This document shows positions 1,396 through 27,298 of a DNA stretch of 45,729 nucleotides, piece after piece. The stretch is from a virus. Both the position numbers and the translations under genes were made by a program. The stretch lies in the IMG/VR virus record IMGVR_UViG_3300013126_003015, positions 1 to 45,729 of that record, one strand, 5' to 3'. Numbering within the stretch: the first letter of the stretch is position 1; the number at the start of each line of letters is the position of its first letter. Below the pieces are notes generated by a model. It worked only from the letters and a program-made list of their open reading frames with translations, ran no database searches and had not been told where the DNA came from.

Positions 1396-2397
1396 TTATT
1401 GTAACAAGTTCTTTAAAATTTTAGATATTTTTTCAGCTGAATATCCATCACCATATGGTGAAACAACGTTGACTTTATAATTTAACAAATGGTGCTCAAA
1501 ATTTTTAATCAAATTTTTAGGTTCATCAATTAAAAAACTAGTTAACCCTAACGATTCTGGTCTTTCGGTTATTTTCCTACATACAAGACATTTTTTATTA
1601 AAAAAAGAACACTCTTCTTGAATACCACCGCTATCTGTTATAACTAATTTTGTTTTGATTAGCAGAGCCAATAATTCATGATGATTCATTGGTGGTACTA
1701 TAGTTACATGTGTCAAAATATCTTTATGTTTTTGCACATTTGGATTTGGGTGTATCGGTAAGATAAATTCTAAATCTTTATGTTTAATAGCTAATTTGTT
1801 TATTTCTTCAAACCATAAATCAATATTCTCATGGTTTTCTCTTCTGTGCATAGTAACCAATACTTTGTTATGGTATTCACATTCTTTTTTATATTCTACC
1901 AAATTGTCTAATACTGTATTTCCAACAACGTGTACTTGACCTAAAACTCTTTCTTTGAAAAGATTGTCAGCGTTTAAATTGGTTGGACAAAGGTGGATTT
2001 TAGCGATAGACGAAACGATTCTTCTATTATTTTCTTCTGGGTATGGGTTTTCATAATCATATGTCCTTAACCCAGCTTCTAAATGAATTACGTCTATTTT
2101 TCTATGCAATGCTGCTAGTGATAAACCAACAACTGATGTTGTATCTCCTTGAACCAATACATGTGTTATACCATCAAAAATAAATGAAGGGATATTCATT
2201 AAATTAGCAAGTACTGAATCCAATCTGTTATCAGACAATTCAGTCATTTCTAATTTGTAATCATATTCACCATTTGCTATATCTTTATGTTGTCCAGTAA
2301 AAAGAATTTTAAATGGAATTTCTTCTAATTCAAATTCTGTTATCAATGGTTTAATTTTGATATATTCTGGTCTTGTTCCGTATGTTAAAAGTATCAT
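1396..2397 (-). CDS. wecB: UDP-N-acetylglucosamine 2-epimerase
   Basis: A 333-residue protein with the family's signatures in order: GTRPEYIKIKPLI near the N terminus, LEAGLRT at 106-112, PEENNRR at 120-126, HRREN at 184-188 and TDSGGIQEE at 254-262. The non-hydrolysing family converts UDP-GlcNAc to UDP-ManNAc, a precursor of bacterial surface polysaccharides and of acidic sugars. It is somewhat shorter than cellular WecB (about 375 residues), mostly through short loops, but no catalytic segment appears lost. It is the last gene of the leftward glycan cassette and follows the GDPD-like gene by 17 bp. It could supply an N-acetylmannosamine-type sugar nucleotide to the glycosyltransferases upstream. 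Confidence 0.93.
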   Translation of the reverse strand: MILLTYGTRPEYIKIKPLITEFELEEIPFKILFTGQHKDIANGEYDYKLEMTELSDNRLDSVLANLMNIPSFIFDGITHVLVQGDTTSVVGLSLAALHRKIDVIHLEAGLRTYDYENPYPEENNRRIVSSIAKIHLCPTNLNADNLFKERVLGQVHVVGNTVLDNLVEYKKECEYHNKVLVTMHRRENHENIDLWFEEINKLAIKHKDLEFILPIHPNPNVQKHKDILTHVTIVPPMNHHELLALLIKTKLVITDSGGIQEECSFFNKKCLVCRKITERPESLGLTSFLIDEPKNLIKNFEHHLLNYKVNVVSPYGDGYSAEKISKILKNLLQ

Positions 2398-2414
2398 ATT
2401 TTATTTTTAATTTA

Positions 2415-2864
2415 CTAATTTTTTCTGTATTTGTCAACAAAATCACTACAAACACCAATAGCATTTGAAATATCATCGTCATTTAATTCTGGCATAACAG
2501 CTATACTATTTCTAATTGGTTGTTTATTAGGGAAAGCCCATATGTAATTAAAACTAGTTAGTGTTACAGTATCATTTTCATGCCAAAAATAATTAAATGG
2601 TAATGTATCAAAATTAGCATTAAAGAATTCTATTGCTTCTATATTTTTGCAGTGAATCCATAACTTTGAATTTCTATCTACTAACCATTTAGTGTCGATA
2701 CCGTATTGTGGTTCATCATGACCCAACCATAAAATATTATCTTTGTACCAAACATCAATTTCAACATCATAACCTTTAGTTATAGCCAAATCAATATAAG
2801 TAGGTTCATTTTCCCATGATTCAAGTCTGCCATTTACGTTTCCTCTATGTGCTATTAATTTCAT
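2415..2864 (-). CDS. GDPD/PI-PLC-like phosphodiesterase-fold protein
   Basis: A 149-residue protein with the pattern of a short glycerophosphodiester phosphodiesterase-like barrel: HRG at 6-8, an E-N-E-P element at 18-21, EIDVW at 35-39 and GHD at 48-50. These match the metal-binding and catalytic His/Glu/Asp positions in order. At about 150 residues it is much shorter than cellular GDPDs (about 250), so it may lack the C-terminal half of the barrel or act on another phosphodiester. Its ATG shares one base with the stop of the upstream fusion gene (TAATG), so the two are translationally coupled within the sugar cassette. The substrate is not deducible; it may remove or trim a polyol-phosphate or sugar-phosphate group. 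Confidence 0.65.
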   Translation of the reverse strand: MKLIAHRGNVNGRLESWENEPTYIDLAITKGYDVEIDVWYKDNILWLGHDEPQYGIDTKWLVDRNSKLWIHCKNIEAIEFFNANFDTLPFNYFWHENDTVTLTSFNYIWAFPNKQPIRNSIAVMPELNDDDISNAIGVCSDFVDKYRKN

Positions 2865-4237
2865 TATTTATTATATTTTTCTAAGAAATAATTTAAATCT
2901 TCTGGTGTACCAATACCCCACATTTTTTCGATGTTAAAAGTCCTTATTTTTTTACAATCAGCAACTGCTTCATTGAATACTGGACAAACATAAAATTCAT
3001 TATTAACCCTAATGTTTTTATTAATCATTTGTTCAGCATATTTAACATAATCCGAACCGTGTTTCCAATAGTAAACCCCAACGGTTGCAATATCTGAAAT
3101 AGGGTTTTTCTCAGCAACTTCAGTGACAAAACCGTTATTATCTATTTTAGCAAAAGACCATTTAGGGTGTGTTGATGAAAAAGTAACTATACCACCATCG
3201 GCATTAGTTTCATTCATTTTATACATAAATTCATTAGAATCCCATTCAATAAATTGGTCTGAATTAGCCATGATTAATGGTTGTTCGTTATTGATGAATT
3301 CTTTAGCTAACAATGTAGTACACGCTGCACCTTCAGTTAACCCATCAACTTCAACTATAGTACAATTTGGTGATATTAAATTTAAAAGAGTGTCTAAATT
3401 ATATTTTTCTCTATGTGATTTTTGCACGATGTAAATAAAGTTAGCCTCTAAATTTAAATTTTCACTAACGACTTTAATCATTGGTTCTCCGTTCACATCT
3501 ATTAAAGGTTTTGGAAAAGTATAACCAGCTTTTTCAAATCTAGACCCAGCTCCAGCCATTGGGATTAATACATTTAATTTATTATCAACCCATTTTGGTG
3601 TTTTCATAGTTTTATTATTTTTTATTTCGTTTAATTTATTATTTATATTTTCATACGTAACATTTTTAGGTGATAATACTCTTAATACGTGTGATTTACT
3701 TCTAGCAGCTGCTAATAACCCATGTGGGGAATCTTCAATTATTAATGTTTCCTCTGGTAATACACCAATACTAGAAATCGCTTTCCAATACATTTCTGGG
3801 TGTGGTTTACTATTCTTAACATCTTCATTTGAAATAATTAAATCGAAATATTCTATAATACCTAATTTAGATAAAACAGTTAAAACAGTTTTTCTAATAG
3901 AATTAGAACAACAAGCTATTTTATACCCATCATTAACTAATTTATTAAAAATCATTTGTAAATCAGTTGATTGCGTTATAGACTGTAACATTTTTAGTGT
4001 TAATCTTTGTTTTTCATCCCATATTAATTTATGTTTATCATTTGGTAAACCACGTTCTTTTGTTAGTATATCTAATTTTTGATTTGTTTTTAACCCATCA
4101 AAAATACTTAAATGGTCTTCCCAGTTAATAACAAATTTTTCATCAACCATTTTTAAACTTTTGTTTAATGTTTCGTAATGAATATTTTTGGCTTCAATCA
4201 AAACACCATCTAAATCGAATATAATTAATTTAACCAT
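2864..4237 (-). CDS. HAD phosphatase / sugar nucleotidyltransferase fusion
   Basis: A 457-residue two-domain protein. Residues 1-210 are a HAD hydrolase: DLDGV at 8-12 (nucleophile D8, acid D10), SNS at 111-113, K144 in the SKPHP segment, and EDSPHG at 168-173. From about 221 a second domain starts with VLIPMAGAGSRF and PKPLIDVNGEP, the nucleotide- and sugar-phosphate-binding signature of NTP transferases that make sugar nucleotides. One chain could thus dephosphorylate a sugar phosphate and activate a sugar 1-phosphate, as adjacent enzymes do in heptose and related pathways; the exact sugar is unknown. An internal ATG at the junction (residue 211) would give the transferase alone. The 5' end overlaps the FkbM gene by 8 bp. 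Confidence 0.88.
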   Translation of the reverse strand: MVKLIIFDLDGVLIEAKNIHYETLNKSLKMVDEKFVINWEDHLSIFDGLKTNQKLDILTKERGLPNDKHKLIWDEKQRLTLKMLQSITQSTDLQMIFNKLVNDGYKIACCSNSIRKTVLTVLSKLGIIEYFDLIISNEDVKNSKPHPEMYWKAISSIGVLPEETLIIEDSPHGLLAAARSKSHVLRVLSPKNVTYENINNKLNEIKNNKTMKTPKWVDNKLNVLIPMAGAGSRFEKAGYTFPKPLIDVNGEPMIKVVSENLNLEANFIYIVQKSHREKYNLDTLLNLISPNCTIVEVDGLTEGAACTTLLAKEFINNEQPLIMANSDQFIEWDSNEFMYKMNETNADGGIVTFSSTHPKWSFAKIDNNGFVTEVAEKNPISDIATVGVYYWKHGSDYVKYAEQMINKNIRVNNEFYVCPVFNEAVADCKKIRTFNIEKMWGIGTPEDLNYFLEKYNK

Positions 4238-4964
4238 GTATTAAATTTTTGTTCATATAAACAACATCCATTTCAGTCATTGAGGGTTCAGTTAATTCAT
4301 TTATAGATATAAAATTTGTTAACTTTTCTTCTAATTGTATTTTAGATGTTGAATTTTCGTATAATTCTTGAATACCTATTTCAGTTGCTATAATTTTAAC
4401 ATTAGTTAAATAATCACCTAAACTATCTAAAACTATTTTTTCAGCACCTTGTACGTCCATCCAAATTAAATCAACATGATTAATCTCCTTTTCTTTTAAC
4501 CAATCACTTAATAATATACAATCAACTTCAGTCTCTTTTTGTAACCATTGTGAAGACCTCCAATGATTTGTAGTTTTTAGCAAAGAACTAGCCCCAACAT
4601 TACCATTAATTACCTCATAAAAAATAGTTTTACCGTTATAGCTATTTATTGCGTATGGATATGCTTCAATTTTATCAATATTATTAACGTTTTTAACTGT
4701 AAATTCGTAATTATGTTGTACTGGCTCAAAAGCGTATATTTTAGCGTGTGGAAACCATCTATTTAATTCTAAACTTTGACAACCATCTCTAGAACCAATA
4801 TCCAATATTACTTTTATTTCATTGAAGTCTATTTTATCTTTTATTGATTCAATTAAACTTGTAGTCCATAAAGGACATTTACCATTTAAATCAATAAAGG
4901 CACCGTTTTTTAATTCATCTTCAGTAAAAGCGTTTTTTATAAATTTTTCATTATTAATCATCAT
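4230..4964 (-). CDS. FkbM-family methyltransferase
   Basis: A 244-residue SAM-dependent methyltransferase of the FkbM type: SAM-binding LDIGSRDG at 54-61, the acidic FEP segment at 79-81, and the diagnostic DVQGAE at 170-175. FkbM enzymes O-methylate sugars or polyketides; in surface polysaccharide clusters they cap or decorate glycans. It overlaps both neighbours by a few bases, which places it in the same operon as the epimerases and transferases. A second, diverged FkbM gene lies at 7711-8319, so two different positions or sugars may be methylated. Confidence 0.88.
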   Translation of the reverse strand: MMINNEKFIKNAFTEDELKNGAFIDLNGKCPLWTTSLIESIKDKIDFNEIKVILDIGSRDGCQSLELNRWFPHAKIYAFEPVQHNYEFTVKNVNNIDKIEAYPYAINSYNGKTIFYEVINGNVGASSLLKTTNHWRSSQWLQKETEVDCILLSDWLKEKEINHVDLIWMDVQGAEKIVLDSLGDYLTNVKIIATEIGIQELYENSTSKIQLEEKLTNFISINELTEPSMTEMDVVYMNKNLIHG

Positions 4965-5563
4965 AAAATCATTTTAGTAGTGTAAACCAAATCATTATTA
5001 TATTTAGATAAAAATACATTATATTTAACCCAAAAAATTTCATTATTATCAGATAAATCATTCAAAATAAAATTAAAATTAATTTTATTTTTATTAAGAA
5101 TATTATCAGTTGTTATTCGTTCAGAAAAAGGACCATGTATTGTTGGTATGTCCCATGCCAAAGCCACTTCATTTATTGGCCCTTCAACAAAATAATCAAC
5201 AAAATATTTACCATCATTATGCCAAGCTAAAAAATTAAGATGGTTTTTTTTAAATAAGCTAACTAATGAACGACTATTATTTGGTATTAAGTCACTTCTC
5301 CATTTTAAAACTCTTTCAAAACCTAATTCCTTAGCTTTATTTATACCTTCTAGTGTTGATTTTTTCTGTAGTGCGATATTTTGTACACCTAGTTCTTTTG
5401 GTTGTTCATTAAAAATTACAATATCGTCTTTATTAAATTTTTCTTCATTACCAACCCATGTTGACCATATTATTGTATAGTCTTTCCAAGCTGTTTTAAG
5501 TTCTTCAATATTACTAGCTGGACCTTGTATTATTATCGCTAAATTATTTTCTGACATTATCAA
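4961..5563 (-). CDS. WavE-like polysaccharide synthesis protein
   Basis: A 200-residue protein that begins with AIIIQGP followed by a TIIWSTW segment, a pattern of the WavE lipopolysaccharide-synthesis family, which is thought to be glycosyltransferase-like. A KWRSDL segment in the middle may be a metal/nucleotide-binding acidic motif. WavE proteins are longer (about 300 residues), so this is a short version. It overlaps the FkbM gene by 4 bp and the epimerase gene by 20 bp. Two close starts (M1 and M3) are possible. The family assignment is from short motifs only. Confidence 0.6.
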   Translation of the reverse strand: MIMSENNLAIIIQGPASNIEELKTAWKDYTIIWSTWVGNEEKFNKDDIVIFNEQPKELGVQNIALQKKSTLEGINKAKELGFERVLKWRSDLIPNNSRSLVSLFKKNHLNFLAWHNDGKYFVDYFVEGPINEVALAWDIPTIHGPFSERITTDNILNKNKINFNFILNDLSDNNEIFWVKYNVFLSKYNNDLVYTTKMIL

Positions 5564-6665
5564 TCCAATTAAATGTTTCTTTTAAACCTTCAAATAATGG
5601 TTTATTAACAGACCAACCAATTTTTTCATGATATAGTTTGTTATCTGAATTCCTACCTTTAACACCAGTTGGACATTTATGACCATATTTCTTTATAAAT
5701 TCATCACCATAAATGTTTTTTATTGTAATATTTTTACCACTTAAATCGATAGCCATTTGTGCTAATTGATTAATTGTTACCATCTCTTCAGAACCTATAT
5801 TAACTGGTCCAGTAAAATCACTGTCCATAAGTCTTAAAACGGCTTCTACACATTCATCAATGTATAGAAATGAACGTGTTTGTGAACCATCACCCCATAC
5901 TTCTAAAATACCACCATCTGGTGTTTCAGCAGCTTTTCTACACATAGCTGCTGGTGCTTTCTCTTTACCACCTTTCCATGTACCTTGTGGTCCAAAAATG
6001 TTGTGGAATCTAGCAATCCTAACATCTAACCCATAATTTCTCATGAATGACAAATAAAGTCGTTCACTAAATAATTTTTCCCAACCATATTCTGAATCTG
6101 GATTAGCTGGGTATGCAGAAGATTCTTCACAATTTGGGTTATTAGGGTCTAATTGATTATGTTCTGGGTACATACAAGCTGAAGACGAGTAAAACACTTT
6201 TTTAATACTCATGCGAGTTGCTTCTTTTACTATATTTAAATTAACCAACGCTGAATTGTGCATAACATCAGCATCATGTTCTCCAGTAAAAATATAACCA
6301 GCACCACCCATGTCGGCAGCTAATTGATAAACCTCATCAAATGAGTTAATTTTATCATCTAAACTTATTTGATTTGGAGCAAACATAATCCTAGACACAA
6401 GCATTGGGTCTCTCAAATCACCTACTATAAATTCATGACAAATTTCATCATGGTTAAAATATTCATGTTCTTTGATGTCAACAATTCTAACCCAATGACC
6501 TTCATTTTTTAATCTTTTTGCTAAGTGACCACCGATGAAACCGCCACCACCTAATACTAATATTTTTTTCATCTTATTCTGATTTAATTGATTTTCAACA
6601 AATTCATCTATATTAGAGTCACCGTAATGGTCTAACCAATCTAAAATAATGTTATTTTTTTTCAT
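5544..6665 (-). CDS. GDP-mannose 3,5-epimerase-like SDR epimerase
   Basis: A 373-residue extended short-chain dehydrogenase: NAD-binding GGGGFIGG at 39-46, SSSACMYP at 160-167 and the catalytic Y193xxxK197. The run ADMGGAGYIF at 117-126 followed by a conserved His/Asn stretch is characteristic of GDP-mannose 3,5-epimerase, which makes GDP-L-galactose or GDP-gulose; other GDP-sugar epimerases remain possible. The fold starts at residue 33, so the first 31 residues (with WLDHYGD) are an extension not expected for the family. ATG at 6572 would give the canonical N terminus. The same frame is also open upstream of 6665 back to a TAA at 6708, suggesting the extension was taken from a broken upstream gene. 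Confidence 0.88.
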   Translation of the reverse strand: MKKNNIILDWLDHYGDSNIDEFVENQLNQNKMKKILVLGGGGFIGGHLAKRLKNEGHWVRIVDIKEHEYFNHDEICHEFIVGDLRDPMLVSRIMFAPNQISLDDKINSFDEVYQLAADMGGAGYIFTGEHDADVMHNSALVNLNIVKEATRMSIKKVFYSSSACMYPEHNQLDPNNPNCEESSAYPANPDSEYGWEKLFSERLYLSFMRNYGLDVRIARFHNIFGPQGTWKGGKEKAPAAMCRKAAETPDGGILEVWGDGSQTRSFLYIDECVEAVLRLMDSDFTGPVNIGSEEMVTINQLAQMAIDLSGKNITIKNIYGDEFIKKYGHKCPTGVKGRNSDNKLYHEKIGWSVNKPLFEGLKETFNWIDNVRK

Positions 6666-15289: not shown

Positions 15290-15994
15290 ATGGTAATATA
15301 TAAAACAACAAATTTGATTAATGGTAAAATTTACGTTGGTCAAGACTCAAAAAATAACCCGAAATATTTAGGTTCTGGTAAAATTTTAAAATACGCATTA
15401 AAGAAATACGGATTAGAAAATTTTAAAAAAGAAATATTAGAATATTGTAAAACTATTGATGAATTAAATGAAAGAGAAAAATATTGGATATATGAATTAA
15501 GTAGTACAAACAAAGATATTGGTTACAATGTAGGGTTTGGAGGTCAATCTGGTTGGATGTTAGGGTTAAAACATTCTGAAGATACAAAGTTAAATTATTC
15601 TATAAATAGAAAAGGAAAACTAATAGGTAAAAAAAACGGTATGTATGGTAAAAAACATTCTGATGAGTCTAAAAATAAAATGAGTAACCCAAAATTTGGT
15701 CAAGATAATGGTATGTATGGTAAAAAACATTCTGAGGAAACTAAAAAGAAAATGAGTGATAAATTAATTGGTGATAGTAACCCATTTTATGGTAAAAAAC
15801 ATTCTGAGGAAACTAAACAAAAGATGAGTGAAACTGCTAAAAAAAGAAAATGGTCACCTACAAGTAAAAAGGTAAGTGTAGGTGACCTAATCTTTGATAG
15901 TGCGACTGAAGCCGCTAGGTGTTTTAATATATCAGTAGGGACCGCTAGCTATAGGTGTAGAAATAATATTAAAAACTGGTCTTGGATTATTTGA
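15290..15994 (+). CDS. GIY-YIG homing endonuclease
   Basis: A 234-residue free-standing homing endonuclease. Residues 1-85 are the GIY-YIG nuclease (IYK at 3-5, YVG at 15-17, the EREKYWI helix at 61-67 and GYNVGFGG). Three NUMOD3 DNA-binding repeats follow, each with YGKKHS(D/E)E: 113-132, 137-156 and 161-180. A NUMOD1-type helix-turn-helix (KKVSVGDLIFDSATEAARCF) covers 193-226. Such enzymes cut a cognate site in related phages lacking the gene and so spread. All domains are intact. It stands on the opposite strand to its neighbours and its last 8 bp overlap the dUTPase 3' end, so the insertion is probably linked to the dUTPase or the glycan operon. Confidence 0.93.
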   Translation: MVIYKTTNLINGKIYVGQDSKNNPKYLGSGKILKYALKKYGLENFKKEILEYCKTIDELNEREKYWIYELSSTNKDIGYNVGFGGQSGWMLGLKHSEDTKLNYSINRKGKLIGKKNGMYGKKHSDESKNKMSNPKFGQDNGMYGKKHSEETKKKMSDKLIGDSNPFYGKKHSEETKQKMSETAKKRKWSPTSKKVSVGDLIFDSATEAARCFNISVGTASYRCRNNIKNWSWII

Positions 15995-16565
15995 TACCAG
16001 TACTACCATAACCACCAGTACCTCTTTCTGTATTTATTTCTATTTTATCGACTTTATTTAATTTTATAAAGTTTTTAGAAATCACTGAAGCTACAATTGC
16101 TTGGGCAATTCTATCCCCACCATTGATTGTAAATGCGTTATCGCTATGGTTAATTAATATTACACCTATTTCTCCTCTGTAATCTGAATCTATGGTTCCT
16201 GGTGAATTTAAAACTGTGACACCATATTTGGCAGCGAGACTGCTACGAGGACGAATTTGAATTTCAAAATTTTCTGGAATTTCAAAATATAAACCAGTTG
16301 GTATAATTCTAACACCTTTTGGGTGTATAGTTACTGGTGAATCTAAATTTGCTCTTAAATCAAACCCAGAAGAACCAGCTGTTGCGTACTCTGGGTCTGG
16401 GTTATTAGATTCATTTTTAAAATTGAAAGATAGTTTATGAGCATCTGGATTATCCACGATTGTCATAGTGTTAAATTCTTTATTAAAATCATCTTGAGTA
16501 TAACCACTATCTGGTTCATTCATCAAAAGGATTTTTTCTTTCATTTTTGTTAATAAGTCTTGCAT
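15987..16565 (-). CDS. dut: dUTPase
   Basis: A 192-residue trimeric-type dUTPase with motif 1 AGSSGFDLRA at 63-72, motif 2 RPRSSLAAK at 105-113, motif 3 GTIDSDYRGEIGV at 123-135 and the C-terminal motif 5 RGTGGYGSTG at 181-190. It hydrolyses dUTP to dUMP and pyrophosphate, keeping uracil out of DNA and feeding dTMP synthesis. It has about 45 extra residues at the N terminus (acidic, TQDDFNKEFN) compared with the 150-residue family norm. It is encoded directly after the HD-domain protein with a shared base (16565), under the host-type promoter at 17159-17189. Confidence 0.96.
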   Translation of the reverse strand: MQDLLTKMKEKILLMNEPDSGYTQDDFNKEFNTMTIVDNPDAHKLSFNFKNESNNPDPEYATAGSSGFDLRANLDSPVTIHPKGVRIIPTGLYFEIPENFEIQIRPRSSLAAKYGVTVLNSPGTIDSDYRGEIGVILINHSDNAFTINGGDRIAQAIVASVISKNFIKLNKVDKIEINTERGTGGYGSTGIK

Positions 16566-21745: not shown

Positions 21746-24700
21746 ATGGGATTTAGAACGAAATTAGACTTTTCAAACAATAGACAAGTAAAACAAAGAA
21801 TAGAAACAACAACAGTTTTGTCTGGTGGAACATCATTTGGTGTGCCATTTAGTATGTTACCAACTGGACCAAACCCAAGTATTAGTTCTATCACACAATC
21901 AGTTAATTTTATAAATAGTACATTCTCTGGTAACAACACAACAACTGTATTTACATGGGGTGATAGTAGAATGAGCTTAGGTGAAAGTGCTTTATCAGCA
22001 ATAACACCTTCAAACTCAGCAACTACACAATCAACTGGAAATGTTTTCACACCTAATATATCTAGTGCGGTAGTTGTTGATGGAAATACTGGTTATACAA
22101 ATTATACTGGTGTTAGTTATAGTATTACAGTAACTGGTATGACAAATTTAGGTGGTGGAAATTATAGTGGTGCTGTTAATACACTAACACTTAATATTTT
22201 GACGGCACAAGGAATTGATTATACTGGAAGAACAATATGGAATGATACTTCTGGTATAACTAGAACCGATAGACTTATAATTAGTGATTCACCACAAGTT
22301 GGTTATGTTTGGACATGTATTGATTCGGAAGGTATGGGTGAATGGCAATACAATGGTTCTTCATCTGGTTCTACAATATGGACTGCTGGTACTGGTGCTA
22401 ATTCAGCTGTATTAGGCGGTTCTGGTGGTATTGCTAGTGGTTCAACTTCTGTTTCTGAAGGTACTAATACTATAGCTGGTGGTATTGGTTCACATGCTGA
22501 AGGTGCTAATACAAAAGCATATGGTAATTATTCACACGCTGAAGGTAATGGTACAATAGCATCTGGTATAACCGCACATGCTGAAGGTTATTTATCTCAA
22601 GCTGGTGATTATTCACATGCTGAAGGTTCTCAAACAATAGCAAGTGGTGATTATTCACATGCTGAAGGTGCTGGGTCTGTAGCTAGTGGTATACAATCAC
22701 ATGCTGAAGGTCAATCAACCGCTAGTGACGATTTTGCACACGCTGAAGGTGCTAATACGCTTGCAAGTGCTTCAGCATCACATGCTGAAGGTGAATATAC
22801 AATAGCTAGTGGAATTCGTTCACACGCTGAAGGTTATTACAGTGTGGCTAGTGGTCAAGGTGCGCATGCTCAAGGTGGTTATTATAATGGTGCTATAATT
22901 TTAAGTGGAGGTACAGCAACTGGAATTGCATCGCATGCTGAAGGTGTTAAAACAATAGCATCTGGTACAACTGCACACGCTGAAGGTTACGAAACACAAG
23001 CTGGTGATTATTCACATGCTGAAGGTGGTAATACAAAAGCATATGGTAATTATTCACACGCTGAAGGTTCTAATACTATAGCTAGTAATACTGGTTCACA
23101 CGCTGAAGGTGGTAGTACTATTGCGAGTGGAGTTGCATCACATGCTGAAGGTCTTAATACAATAGCATCTGGTATAACCGCACATGCTGAAGGTTATTTT
23201 TCTAAAGCTGGTGGTGCTTATTCACATTCTGAAGGTTATTTAACAATAGCATCTGGTACAAGTGCACATGCTGAAGGTTATTTATCTCAAGCTGGTGATT
23301 ATTCACATGCTGAGGGTTATCAAACAATTTCAACTGGTATTGGTTCACATGCTGAAGGACAAGGAACAATAGCTTCTGGTGCTGGTTCACATGCTGAAGG
23401 TAATGGTACAATAGCGACTAATACTTCATCACATGCTGAAGGTTCTCAAACAATAGCAAGTGGTGGGGTATCACATGCTGAAGGTGCTGGGTCTGTAGCA
23501 AGTGGTACTTATTCGCACGCACAAAATGCAGCAACATTAGCAAATGGTAATTTTTCACATGCTGGTGGTCAATATAATACGGCATCTGGTGACACATCGT
23601 TTACTCATTTTAAAGGTAATGTTTTAGATAAAACTCAATATGGTGCATCTGGTGATACATCAGCCATATTAGGTGGTAGGTTGCATAAAATAAAAACTGG
23701 TGCTAGTTATAGTGTTATTCTAGGTGGTGAATCAGTGACGATTGAGAGTAGTACAGCTAATTCAGCAGCTATTGGTAGTTATAGCTCAACAACATCAACT
23801 GGTTATTCCGCATTGATAGGTGCGTATGAATCTACTTTAGCTGGTGGTGGTGGTGGTTCTACATCTTTAATTTCAACATGGAAAGGTTACATATATAATA
23901 GTAATTTCTCTTCAATTATTGGTGGTTATAATAACATAATATCTGGTGTTACGGGTATTGATTATAGTGCTATTTTAGGTGGTCAAAATAATTTTATAAC
24001 AAGTAATGCTGATTTATGTGCAATTATTGGTGGTGATACAAACAAAATAAACCCAGGTGCTCAAAGAACCGTTGTTTTAGGTGGTCAAAACATAATAGGT
24101 AATTTATCAGATATGGTTTATGTCCCAGATTTGATTATTGATGGTTTGACATCTACAGACCCTTTAGCGACTGATATAAACGGTCAGATAGTGGCTGGTA
24201 CTTCAGATGCTAGACTTAAACAAAATATCCAAGATTTGTCTAATTCTTTAGATGTAATTAAAAACCTAAGAGGTGTTTCATTTGAATATACACCAGAATC
24301 AAACATGGGTGGTGGGTTACGTTATGGTTTTATAGCACAAGAAGTACAGCAGCACGTACCAATTATTGTTAGAGACAGAACTAAAGGTGATGGTATGTTA
24401 TCATTGAATTATAATGAAATAGTACCAATATTAGTTGAAGCAGTTAAAGAATTATCTACTGGTACTACGTCTTCAAATAATACGTATTTAGAAACACAAA
24501 CAATACTTGCTGAAGATAATAACATTGATTTAAACTACAATGGAACACAAGAAACAGCTATTGGTGGTGGTTTAATAGTTTTACATGCAAAAGGACAAGA
24601 TTCATCAGCTGAATTAATAACTGATAATAATGGTGATTTCGTAACAAACAACGATTTTAAACCTAGTGCATTAACAATACCTTTCTATACTCCAAGTTCA

Positions 24701-24805
24701 TCAAATGATGAGTCTGGTAATGAAGGAAATATAACTAGAGATGATAATTACTTATATTTAAAATGTTTAAATAAATGGAAAAGGGTTAAATTAGAAGAAT
24801 TTTAA
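21746..24805 (+). CDS. Long tail fibre/adhesin with YadA-head-like repeats and S74 chaperone domain
   Basis: A 1019-residue fibre. After an N-terminal part of about 220 residues (attachment region, Ser/Thr/Gly-rich), residues 249-617 hold 26 copies of a 14-residue SHAEG-x2-TIASG-x2 repeat, the left-handed beta-roll repeat of YadA/Hep_Hag adhesin heads, which bind surfaces as trimers. A second module (about 640-790) has repeated ILGG / IIGG-N strands. An S74 intramolecular chaperone follows with SDARLKQNI at 820-828 (self-cleavage expected between S820 and D821), FEYTPE and GFIAQEVQQ. Unusually, 110 further residues follow the S74 core, ending LNKWKRVKLEEF. It is expressed from the phage-type promoter. 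Confidence 0.92.
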   Translation: MGFRTKLDFSNNRQVKQRIETTTVLSGGTSFGVPFSMLPTGPNPSISSITQSVNFINSTFSGNNTTTVFTWGDSRMSLGESALSAITPSNSATTQSTGNVFTPNISSAVVVDGNTGYTNYTGVSYSITVTGMTNLGGGNYSGAVNTLTLNILTAQGIDYTGRTIWNDTSGITRTDRLIISDSPQVGYVWTCIDSEGMGEWQYNGSSSGSTIWTAGTGANSAVLGGSGGIASGSTSVSEGTNTIAGGIGSHAEGANTKAYGNYSHAEGNGTIASGITAHAEGYLSQAGDYSHAEGSQTIASGDYSHAEGAGSVASGIQSHAEGQSTASDDFAHAEGANTLASASASHAEGEYTIASGIRSHAEGYYSVASGQGAHAQGGYYNGAIILSGGTATGIASHAEGVKTIASGTTAHAEGYETQAGDYSHAEGGNTKAYGNYSHAEGSNTIASNTGSHAEGGSTIASGVASHAEGLNTIASGITAHAEGYFSKAGGAYSHSEGYLTIASGTSAHAEGYLSQAGDYSHAEGYQTISTGIGSHAEGQGTIASGAGSHAEGNGTIATNTSSHAEGSQTIASGGVSHAEGAGSVASGTYSHAQNAATLANGNFSHAGGQYNTASGDTSFTHFKGNVLDKTQYGASGDTSAILGGRLHKIKTGASYSVILGGESVTIESSTANSAAIGSYSSTTSTGYSALIGAYESTLAGGGGGSTSLISTWKGYIYNSNFSSIIGGYNNIISGVTGIDYSAILGGQNNFITSNADLCAIIGGDTNKINPGAQRTVVLGGQNIIGNLSDMVYVPDLIIDGLTSTDPLATDINGQIVAGTSDARLKQNIQDLSNSLDVIKNLRGVSFEYTPESNMGGGLRYGFIAQEVQQHVPIIVRDRTKGDGMLSLNYNEIVPILVEAVKELSTGTTSSNNTYLETQTILAEDNNIDLNYNGTQETAIGGGLIVLHAKGQDSSAELITDNNGDFVTNNDFKPSALTIPFYTPSSSNDESGNEGNITRDDNYLYLKCLNKWKRVKLEEF
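22490..23600 (+). repeat. 42-bp coding repeats (SHAEG array)
   Basis: About 26 in-frame units of 39-45 bp, one of about 69 bp, all beginning near TCACATGCTGAAGGT. Some stretches are exact duplicates far apart: 22574-22623 equals 23264-23313 (50 bp), and 22508-22546 equals 23030-23068 (39 bp). This shows recent unequal recombination or gene conversion in the array. Confidence 0.9.
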
Positions 24806-24806
24806 T
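24776..24806 (+). repeat. Direct repeat flanking HNH gene (left copy)
   Basis: A 31-bp stretch (TGGAAAAG ... TTAGAA ... TTTTAAT) at the end of the large fibre gene. It is matched at 23 of 31 positions by 25485-25515 at the end of the HNH gene. The encoded peptides are WKRVKLEEF and WKRTNLESF, both followed by TAA. It is read as the 3' end of the interrupted gene and its copy. Confidence 0.7.
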
Positions 24807-25514
24807 ATGAGTGGTTTGAAATATAAAATAGATGATTTAATTGATTTAATCAATCAATACAAAAGTACTGATGAAATAGCTACTTTTTACAATGTTAGTG
24901 GTAGAACTGTTAGATATTGGTTTAAAAAAGAAGGTCTGGAATCAAAAGTTAAATATAAAGGTTATGATAATTTAACAAATTTAGATGAAGGTAAAAAGAA
25001 AGAAAGAATTGAAAAGTCGATAAAAAGTAATAAATTAAAACTAAAAGATAGAGTCAAATGTGTTTGTGAAACATGTAAAGAAGAATATTTAGTTAAAAAA
25101 TCAGTCTTTAAAATAGGTTCTAGATTTTGTAGTCGAAAATGTTTATACACATATTTATTTAAAACAAATCCAGAAAATCATCCAAGATGGTTGGGTGGTA
25201 AAACACAAGAAAATCAAATTGGTAGAAGTAATCTAGAATATGTTGAATGGCGAATTAATGTTTGGAGGCGAGATTTTTTTACTTGTCAAAAATGTTTTAG
25301 TGTTGGTAAAAACTTAAATGCACATCATATTAATTCTTGGTCAAATAATATTAATGAAAGATATTGTATTGATAATGGGATAACGTTGTGTAAAGATTGT
25401 CACAAAGAATTACATAAAAATTATGGACAAAAAACTGATATAACCAAACTAGTTGATTTTTTAGGAATTAAAACATCATCTGGATGGAAAAGAACTAATT
25501 TAGAAAGCTTCTAA
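24807..25514 (+). CDS. HNH homing endonuclease
   Basis: A 235-residue protein inserted between two fibre genes. It has a helix-turn-helix at about 22-43 (TDEIATFYNVSGRTVRYWF), Cys pairs C87/C90 and C108/C112 that look like a zinc ribbon, and an HNH nuclease with C160-x2-C163, NAHHINSW (H173, H174), N190, C195-x2-C198 and H199/H203. The last nine residues, WKRTNLESF, resemble WKRVKLEEF at the end of the upstream fibre, and the underlying 31 bp are about 74% identical, so the gene is bounded by a duplicated fibre 3' end. It starts 1 bp after the fibre stop and its own stop overlaps the next ATG (TAATG). Confidence 0.9.
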   Translation: MSGLKYKIDDLIDLINQYKSTDEIATFYNVSGRTVRYWFKKEGLESKVKYKGYDNLTNLDEGKKKERIEKSIKSNKLKLKDRVKCVCETCKEEYLVKKSVFKIGSRFCSRKCLYTYLFKTNPENHPRWLGGKTQENQIGRSNLEYVEWRINVWRRDFFTCQKCFSVGKNLNAHHINSWSNNINERYCIDNGITLCKDCHKELHKNYGQKTDITKLVDFLGIKTSSGWKRTNLESF

Positions 25515-25515
25515 T
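25485..25515 (+). repeat. Direct repeat flanking HNH gene (right copy)
   Basis: The right partner of the repeat at 24776-24806. It forms the last nine codons and the stop of the HNH endonuclease, which suggests the endonuclease reading frame was fused to the resident fibre 3' end upon insertion. Confidence 0.7.
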
Positions 25516-27298
25516 GGGAAATATTAAAAACTTTAATTTTAACAAATTAGATTTAAAATTATCTAATTCAGATTATTGGGATTTCTATTTGAATTCTGAT
25601 GAGGATAATAATTGTGGTACCCCTAATAGTGAATCTTGTGATAGTGTTGTTTGGTTTGATTTTAACAATTTATCAACATATGCTAATAGTGCTTATACAT
25701 CTACGACAATATACAGTTTATCAACATGGACTGAAGCAGTAAATACGGGTTATACTTTTAACACAATTGGTTTAACTGGTATTGATAATGGTTTGATTAC
25801 ATTTGAGAAAACTACTGGAGACACAACAAATCAAGCATTATTATCTGCAATAACTGCATCTACATTGACTATACCGTCTGGTGATTCTAGATTCTTTATG
25901 ACTAGAGTTACTGGTACTACTGGTGATTATATTTATCCTATGAGTGTAGTTACTGGTGCAACAACTTATATTAATTTATGTGGTGGTTTTTATCAAGGAT
26001 TTTATAAAATTGATGGTTATTCTTATCAAGTATTACCGACTAGAGCTAGTGAGGGTTGGTCGAGTGAAATCGTTTTAAGACCAAGTGCTTGTGTGGCTAG
26101 TGGTACAACTCTTAATGATGATTACCCTAATAATAAAGGGTTTTTCTTCTACATGGGTACTAGAGCTGAAAACAAATATTGGAATATTTGGGAAGGAGCT
26201 AATACTGGATGTACTAGTGGATGTACTATACCTTCTGGTTGTACTGGTACCACAACTCAATGGTGTACAATTCCAAAAGAAAATGAAGTTTATATAATTG
26301 GTGACTATGGTGTTGCTGTTCCGTTAGACCCACCTCAAATAACAATTGATTTAATCACGAATCCATTTTTAATATATGGTAGAGCAAAAGATGATAGGTA
26401 TCCATTATTAACTGGTGCTTCTGGTACATTTATATTTGAAAATGAAATTGATTTGACAGTGACCGCTACAACATGTTCGGTTTGTTCAGTTTGTGGAAAT
26501 GTACATGACGGTTTAGGTAGTCAGACCGCTTGTTCTTATGATGGAAATGGTATTGTGGTTGTTAAAACAAACGAAAAAATAACTAACAATCAAAACCCAT
26601 TTTTAATTTATGGTAGAGGTTCTAACAAACAAAGATGTAATTGTTTTTCTTGTGGTGGAAACGGTGATGGTTTAGGTAAAGACACTGTTTGTACTTTTAG
26701 TGGGTTTACTTCTCCAATAACAGAGTTAGATTATAAAACAGATGTAATTGATAACGCATTAGGTTTTAGAATAAAAGATGATGGTAGTATCGGTTATCGA
26801 TTATTATCAGTTACTGGACAATGTGTTACAGCAAACACTGGTGTTATAACTTATGTAACTGGAACAACCATAGAAGAAGGTTACTCTCAACCTAATATGG
26901 TTTTAGATGATGAATGGTCACACATAACAATAAAGTTCAACACATGTGAAGAACTAAACGATTGTGAGTTAAAATATAATAAACCTAGAAAAGGTAGACT
27001 ATCTTTTTATGTTAACGGTAAATTAGTTTATTGGGTTGATGAGTTTGATGAATTTATCGCAAGACGATTAAATGAATATAAAGATAAACAAATAGGTGTA
27101 CCATTTAATTTTAGTTTAGGTGGTGGTTCACAAGGTTTATTAGAGAGTCAAACATTTGATGGTTTGGATAATAACGATAGAGACTTATTAATCGAACAAA
27201 ATTTTGCTGGAACATTTATAGGTGATATATCTTATTTTAAATTTTATATCTGCCCTTTAAGTTATACAAACATCAATAATAACTATAACAATATGTAG
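25514..27298 (+). CDS. Cysteine-containing tail protein with lectin-like C-terminal region
   Basis: A 594-residue virion protein. The central part has a duplicated unit: NPFLIYGR at 283-290 and again at 361-368, each followed by a CxxCG(N/G)-xx-DGLG-x2-T-xC segment with paired cysteines, unusual for a cytoplasmically assembled fibre. The C-terminal 140 residues (DEWSHITIKFNTCEELNDCE, RKGRLSFYVNGKLVYWVDEF, AGTFIGDISYFKFY) have the strand order of a LamG/concanavalin-A-like lectin domain. The start codon overlaps the HNH stop. It probably belongs to the tail tip or fibre complex; a glycan-binding role is inferred. Confidence 0.8.
   Translation: MGNIKNFNFNKLDLKLSNSDYWDFYLNSDEDNNCGTPNSESCDSVVWFDFNNLSTYANSAYTSTTIYSLSTWTEAVNTGYTFNTIGLTGIDNGLITFEKTTGDTTNQALLSAITASTLTIPSGDSRFFMTRVTGTTGDYIYPMSVVTGATTYINLCGGFYQGFYKIDGYSYQVLPTRASEGWSSEIVLRPSACVASGTTLNDDYPNNKGFFFYMGTRAENKYWNIWEGANTGCTSGCTIPSGCTGTTTQWCTIPKENEVYIIGDYGVAVPLDPPQITIDLITNPFLIYGRAKDDRYPLLTGASGTFIFENEIDLTVTATTCSVCSVCGNVHDGLGSQTACSYDGNGIVVVKTNEKITNNQNPFLIYGRGSNKQRCNCFSCGGNGDGLGKDTVCTFSGFTSPITELDYKTDVIDNALGFRIKDDGSIGYRLLSVTGQCVTANTGVITYVTGTTIEEGYSQPNMVLDDEWSHITIKFNTCEELNDCELKYNKPRKGRLSFYVNGKLVYWVDEFDEFIARRLNEYKDKQIGVPFNFSLGGGSQGLLESQTFDGLDNNDRDLLIEQNFAGTFIGDISYFKFYICPLSYTNINNNYNNM

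Follow-up and report, generated by a model that had tools for sequence, protein, structure and literature searches.

A phage HNH endonuclease gene appears to bring a substitute tail-fibre end and to keep the native end as its own C terminus

How did the end of a phage tail-fibre gene come to be repeated at the end of the endonuclease gene that follows it? The window, meaning the whole stretch of DNA analysed here, is an entire IMG/VR virus record of 45,729 bases. Its tail-fibre gene (positions 21746–24805, plus strand; 1019 aa; PHROG tail fibre matches), which contains an S74 intramolecular-chaperone domain at aa 820–872 (PF13884), is unbroken up to its own stop and terminates in YLYLKCLNKWKRVKLEEF-TAA, and the following HNH endonuclease gene (24807–25514, plus strand; 235 aa; PF01844, E 4e-5; phrog_8446, E 1.1e-18) terminates in FLGIKTSSGWKRTNLESF-TAA. 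When aligned on their stop codons, positions 24775–24805 and 25484–25514 are identical at 23 of 31 nucleotides, as an earlier note on this DNA had stated, and ranking all 31-mers of the window by their likeness to the left copy puts the right copy first (the runner-up has 21/31). A degenerate pattern spanning both copies matches the window twice, at these very ends, as compared to 0.10 matches expected by chance. A chance likeness is ruled out by the ranking and the pattern count. The echo is real, and it is longer than the 9–10 codons first noted, comprising about 15 codons and the stop. Elsewhere in the fibre, aa ~230–620 form a long HAEG-type repeat array, which is YadA-head-like (below the Pfam cut-off) and includes six phrog_25468 stretches.

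The distance from stop to stop is 709 bp, and when an insert of that length (24761–25469, plus strand) is removed, the flanks join in frame as NYLYLKTSSGWKRTNLESF and a stop (in the fuller reading, NITRDDNYLYLKTSSGWKRTNLESF and a stop), in agreement with the family consensus. The cassette ends are uncertain by a few bases, and AAA is common to both of them, in register. The in-frame joining places the insert inside the fibre gene, 13–15 codons before the stop. The endonuclease had been proposed to lie exactly between two genes without damaging either; the fibre is indeed spared by the ending that the cassette carries, but the insert merely looks intergenic because of that carried ending. By sequence comparison, the inserted unit is an alternative fibre tail with its stop (LKCLNKWKRVKLEEF; 24758–24805, plus strand), followed by the HNH gene, about 709 bp in total, and its entry 13–15 codons before the native stop gave the fibre a new C terminus. 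The last ~15 native codons, with their stop, have stayed in place and form the present C terminus of the HNH protein (IKTSSGWKRTNLESF; 25467–25514, plus strand), together with the TAATG overlap between the native fibre stop and the start of the downstream gene (25514–27298, plus strand; 594 aa; unknown family). The HNH gene has its own start and stop, and no intron was detected around it (no Rfam match at E ≤ 1). For the downstream gene, which encodes repeated NPFLIYGR motifs and adjoins the fibre directly in relatives, viral contigs yielded at least 177 relatives, but 50,697 cultured phage records, Pfam, and PHROGs contained none; the GTDB genomes scanned yielded no relatives.

Which of the two ends is native? 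Relatives were gathered from viral contigs, with the downstream gene and the fibre C-terminal domain as queries. In 46 distinct related viral contigs, a gap of 2–18 nt with no HNH gene separates the fibre from the downstream gene. The same gene pair is therefore represented by 46 empty sites and one inserted site, plus the L184 case described below, which is the sporadic presence expected of a homing endonuclease. The fibre ends of the 46 contigs mostly read [IV]KTxxGWKRxNLExF, the type of the HNH tail (IKTSSGWKRTNLESF) and not that of the present window fibre (LKCLNKWKRVKLEEF). The closest relatives, L003, L004, and L005, share the TAATGGGAAATAT junction with the window, and their fibre bodies are identical to that of the window at 112, 112, and 108 of the 135 nt preceding the tail, respectively. 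The present fibre tail matches them at 27, 28, and 27 of 45 nt, while the HNH tail matches them at 35, 37, and 37, and the 45 nt after the HNH stop at 39, 40, and 44. Among 50 uninserted fibres, pairs with bodies alike at 105 or more of the 135 positions agree on average at 35.6 of the 45 tail positions (range 25–45); by this sequence yardstick, the right copy is typical and the left copy falls at the low end. The comparison with insert-free relatives that the earlier note had suggested thus favours the right copy, in both fibre end and junction, and bears out the three parts of its model: the endonuclease brought its own fibre end (the left tail departs from L003–L005, while the fibre body matches them), the resident end became the HNH C terminus (the HNH tail and the junction match them), and the upstream fibre acquired a new C terminus (27–28/45 in the tail, against 108–112/135 in the body).

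Other inserts occupy the same fibre/downstream-gene junction in L014 and L070 (3032 nt) and in L111 (1736 nt). They were considered as endonucleases and rejected, as they are extra fibre-like genes (2975–5947, 990 aa, in L014; 4379–6082, 567 aa, in L111), and the junction therefore also takes other inserts. In L091, the fibre and the downstream gene, which are 2–18 nt apart in relatives, are separated by a gene-free 102-nt spacer (4364–4466), which could be the scar of a lost insert. In L181–L183, the same downstream gene is preceded by fibre-like genes in tandem (1575–3695), whose C termini are nearly identical (QNYNALKGRFGLN).

Where might the replacement tail have come from? The present fibre tail matches that of L058, which belongs to another lineage, at 35 of 45 nt. 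In the trees, the fibre body groups with L003–L005 (support 88/92), while the left tail groups with L056 and L058 (a modest support of 92/57, from tails as short as 45 nt) and the right tail falls on the L003–L005 side. Among the 50 uninserted fibres, the third residue of the tail is Cys only in L056 and L058 (CNN[IK]W), as in the replacement tail of the window. Fibre ends of the left type without an insert, which the earlier note had listed as evidence against its model, are thus formally present in these two contigs, but the fibre body of the window groups with L003–L005 and not with them. As L056 and L058 lack the HNH gene, the left tail type also exists independently. The sequences suggest that they may show the origin of the replacement tail; they may represent the source lineage, resistant alleles, or alleles after HNH loss. 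A donor phage with both this HNH gene and an L058-like fibre was not found among the viral contigs searched. The shift towards L056 and L058 also bears on the idea that the fibre 3′ end was doubled in tandem, that the HNH gene landed between the copies, and that the copies drifted apart. Such a duplication would account for a gene flanked by two copies; however, the copy that departs from the relatives is the fibre-bound one, which should be under stronger constraint than an endonuclease tail, its departure has a direction, and in the third case described below, the fibre-bound copy is AT-rich inside a GC-rich gene. We consider this origin very unlikely.

Next, is the tail a part of the endonuclease itself? 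PF01844 scores above its cut-off in the HNH proteins of the window, L184, and L323, which identifies each of them as having the nuclease domain. In the window, the core spans aa 160–204 (25284–25418, plus strand; PF01844), and His173, His174, Asn190, and His199, along with Cys pairs, are kept in three homologues. A probable helix-turn-helix at aa 12–45 (24840–24941, plus strand), conserved in L184 and L323, has a weak PF13384 match (E 0.0029, below the curated cut-off); HTH_23 is below its cut-off in the window protein and just above it in that of L323. The structure model, which is rough (mean pLDDT 75.8, pTM 0.41), has helices at the N terminus and a last helix at aa 212–219, while aa 222–235 (pLDDT < 50) are predicted to be disordered. 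The nearest HNH relatives stop shortly past ..HK.YG..NT..QF.EF, and the window protein has the same end part (HKNYGQKTDITKLVDFL), followed by the fibre tail. Among 92 HNH ORFs, with tandem HNH copies and frame artefacts set aside, only those of the window and L184 have a C terminus that echoes the upstream gene. The HNH relatives in cultured phages reach ~46% identity at most, over part of the protein, and the matches listed do not extend to the tail residues.

L184, a second case, contains a relative of the downstream gene that is preceded by a fibre gene and an HNH gene. Its fibre ends in YIYVCVSNNVWKRASLSSF and its HNH protein, which is 35–36% identical to that of the window, ends in YVCVATNTWKRAALSGF. 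The uninserted relatives of L184, L294–L296, have fibre ends of the YVCVATNTWKRATLSGF type. As compared with L294, the fibre body of L184 is identical at 498 of 630 nt, the present fibre tail at 26 of 45, and the HNH tail at 39 of 45. The echo in L184 therefore follows the tail class of its local fibre and not that of the window, which indicates that the HNH protein did not have this tail ancestrally; a tail intrinsic to the HNH family is ruled out by the 92 ORFs together with L184. Since the window and L184 proteins both end in WKRxxLxxF, this tail might still be a functional part of the HNH family, for example in DNA binding or assembly, from which the fibre likeness would derive. We give this explanation almost no weight, as each tail matches its own local fibre and not the other HNH protein, about 90 other relatives lack the tail (unrelated HNH proteins bearing it, which would be at odds with the earlier model, did not appear), the tail is predicted to be disordered, and the HNH protein of L323 has no such tail, the stranded one being on the other strand.

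L323, the third case, is a contig of an unrelated phage with a pectate-lyase-like tail protein and a head-closure Hc3 gene. A fibre gene ending in YICVSNNVWKKAAISTW and a stop is followed by a gene for an HNH protein of this family, encoded on the other strand, and then by HICTATNTWKKVAIATW and a stop, which lies in the fibre orientation and overlaps the likely Hc3 start. The GC content is 38% in the first tail and 56% in the second, the latter like the surrounding genome, and the stranded copy therefore again appears to be the native one. No uninserted relative of L323 was present among the loci examined here, and the call of the native tail is based on base composition only. Since the HNH gene is antisense, the borrowed stop codon of the other two cases is a by-product and not the purpose of the arrangement. 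The joined L323 tail is recognised in cyanophage and Klebsiella phage structural proteins, and the module is thus widespread. When all loci were scanned for C-terminal echoes, the endonuclease cases beyond the window were limited to L184 and L323, and most of the other results were tandem fibre duplications and repeat artefacts.

Could the three cases have arisen without homing? The HNH gene may have inserted in frame close to the end of the fibre and captured the native tail and stop, with the fibre end restored later by ordinary recombination with the fibre of another phage, so that the tail was never in a mobile cassette. The fibre genes here are mosaic, the S74 part resembling L055 and the last 200 bases resembling L003–L005, and tails of the L056/L058 type circulate without the HNH gene. 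Nevertheless, this course of events requires a broken-fibre stage and two independent events in each of the three cases, all at one codon position, and we regard it as improbable.

The window also contains, in antisense to the neighbouring genes, a gene for a GIY-YIG homing-type endonuclease (15290–15994, plus strand) with NUMOD3 repeats and an I-TevI-like DNA-binding domain. This gene and a dUTPase gene (15987–16565, minus strand) overlap by 8 nt at their 3′ ends, and a search for a displaced dUTPase tail beyond the endonuclease gene revealed none.

We consider it likely that the window protein is a free-standing HNH homing endonuclease that targets the fibre 3′ end, just upstream of the conserved tail TGG (Trp) codon. 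The codon position of the insertion is common to the window, L184, and L323, and the two tails differ at 18–19 of 45 positions in all three cases. In the proposed mechanism, the HNH protein would nick or cut the tail of an uninserted allele, and repair from the cassette-bearing genome would copy the cassette in. Because of the differences between the carried and native tails, the fibre would remain functional and the target would not be rebuilt: the right half of the site would be altered at the left junction, and the left half would be replaced by HNH sequence at the right junction. With no intact site at either junction, the element would spare itself from cutting. Native tails and fibre bodies show about the same similarity to the uninserted relatives (37/45 and 112/135 in the window; 39/45 and 498/630 in L184), which suggests that the insertions are recent in each lineage, rather than the outcome of one ancient event.

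More tentatively, the enzymes may belong to an HNH homing family specialised on a portable fibre C-terminal module (..Y.YVC.ATNTWKR..L..F and relatives) in unrelated phages. Its members would enter the gene at a single codon position, on either strand, and bring along a differing, self-resistant end of the module. Fibre genes would then keep their function upon invasion, gain resistance, and be driven from phage to phage. With three cases that agree in codon position, including one from an unrelated phage, the cleavage site would be predictable. Because the recipient allele is preserved in the displaced tail, one genome reveals both the recipient and the incoming alleles, and the location of the site in a tail-fibre gene bears on the exchange of fibre ends between phages.

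How does this arrangement compare with known systems? The T4 mobA gene splits the topoisomerase gene in which it lies, and a 50-nt insert that accompanies it may serve as protection from cleavage (PMC5009743, PMC2988022). The likeness is that of a phage HNH homing endonuclease in a structural or essential gene with a sequence thought to be self-protective; however, mobA/gene 60 consists of two coding regions, one piece with a bypassed 50-nt insert, whereas the fibre here has a complete substitute end. The free-standing HNH homing endonucleases of T-even phages and Skunavirus (mobE and others) likewise lie between two genes of one transcription unit, occur in some relatives only, and overlap or abut the stops of their neighbours; in contrast to the present cases, the accessible portions of those accounts make no mention of a target gene whose 3′ end was replaced (PMC2988022; PMC12724721). 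The HNH endonuclease of bacteriophage GVE2 (PDB 5h0m) resembles the window protein weakly (profile E 1.5e-4; best Foldseek hit, E 9.7e-3), with a likeness confined to the HNH core; the N-terminal HTH region and the fibre tail are not shared. In a literature search that covered few subscription papers, we found no phage precedent for a replaced 3′ end combined with a native end fused to the endonuclease.

The closest precedent is found in the mitochondrial mobile endonuclease ORFs with foreign C termini in Allomyces macrogynus atp6 and in Glomus sp. atp6, atp9, cox2, and nad3 (PMC3630166). There, the ORF brought in an alternative 3′ end of the host gene, creating a hybrid gene, and the native end was displaced behind the endonuclease, where it matches the uninserted relatives better than the inserted end does (PMC3630166); similar C-terminal duplications beside endonuclease ORFs have also been described (PMC6279837). 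The window fibre likewise has a foreign 3′ end, its left tail departing from the resident lineage, and the displaced native end matches the uninserted relatives in the window and L184, and is identified in L323 by base composition only. The mitochondrial elements encode LAGLIDADG or GIY-YIG enzymes and carry ends of ~50–280 nt, while the present enzymes are of the HNH type and reside in phage fibre genes. As an HNH enzyme in a virus record, the window element would thus work like those mobile ORFs without being a member of the group. It would provide a phage instance of the trick reported for fungal mitochondria, in which a homing element spares its host gene with a substitute 3′ end, with the difference that in two of our cases, the displaced native end is fused in frame and left as the tail of the element's own protein.
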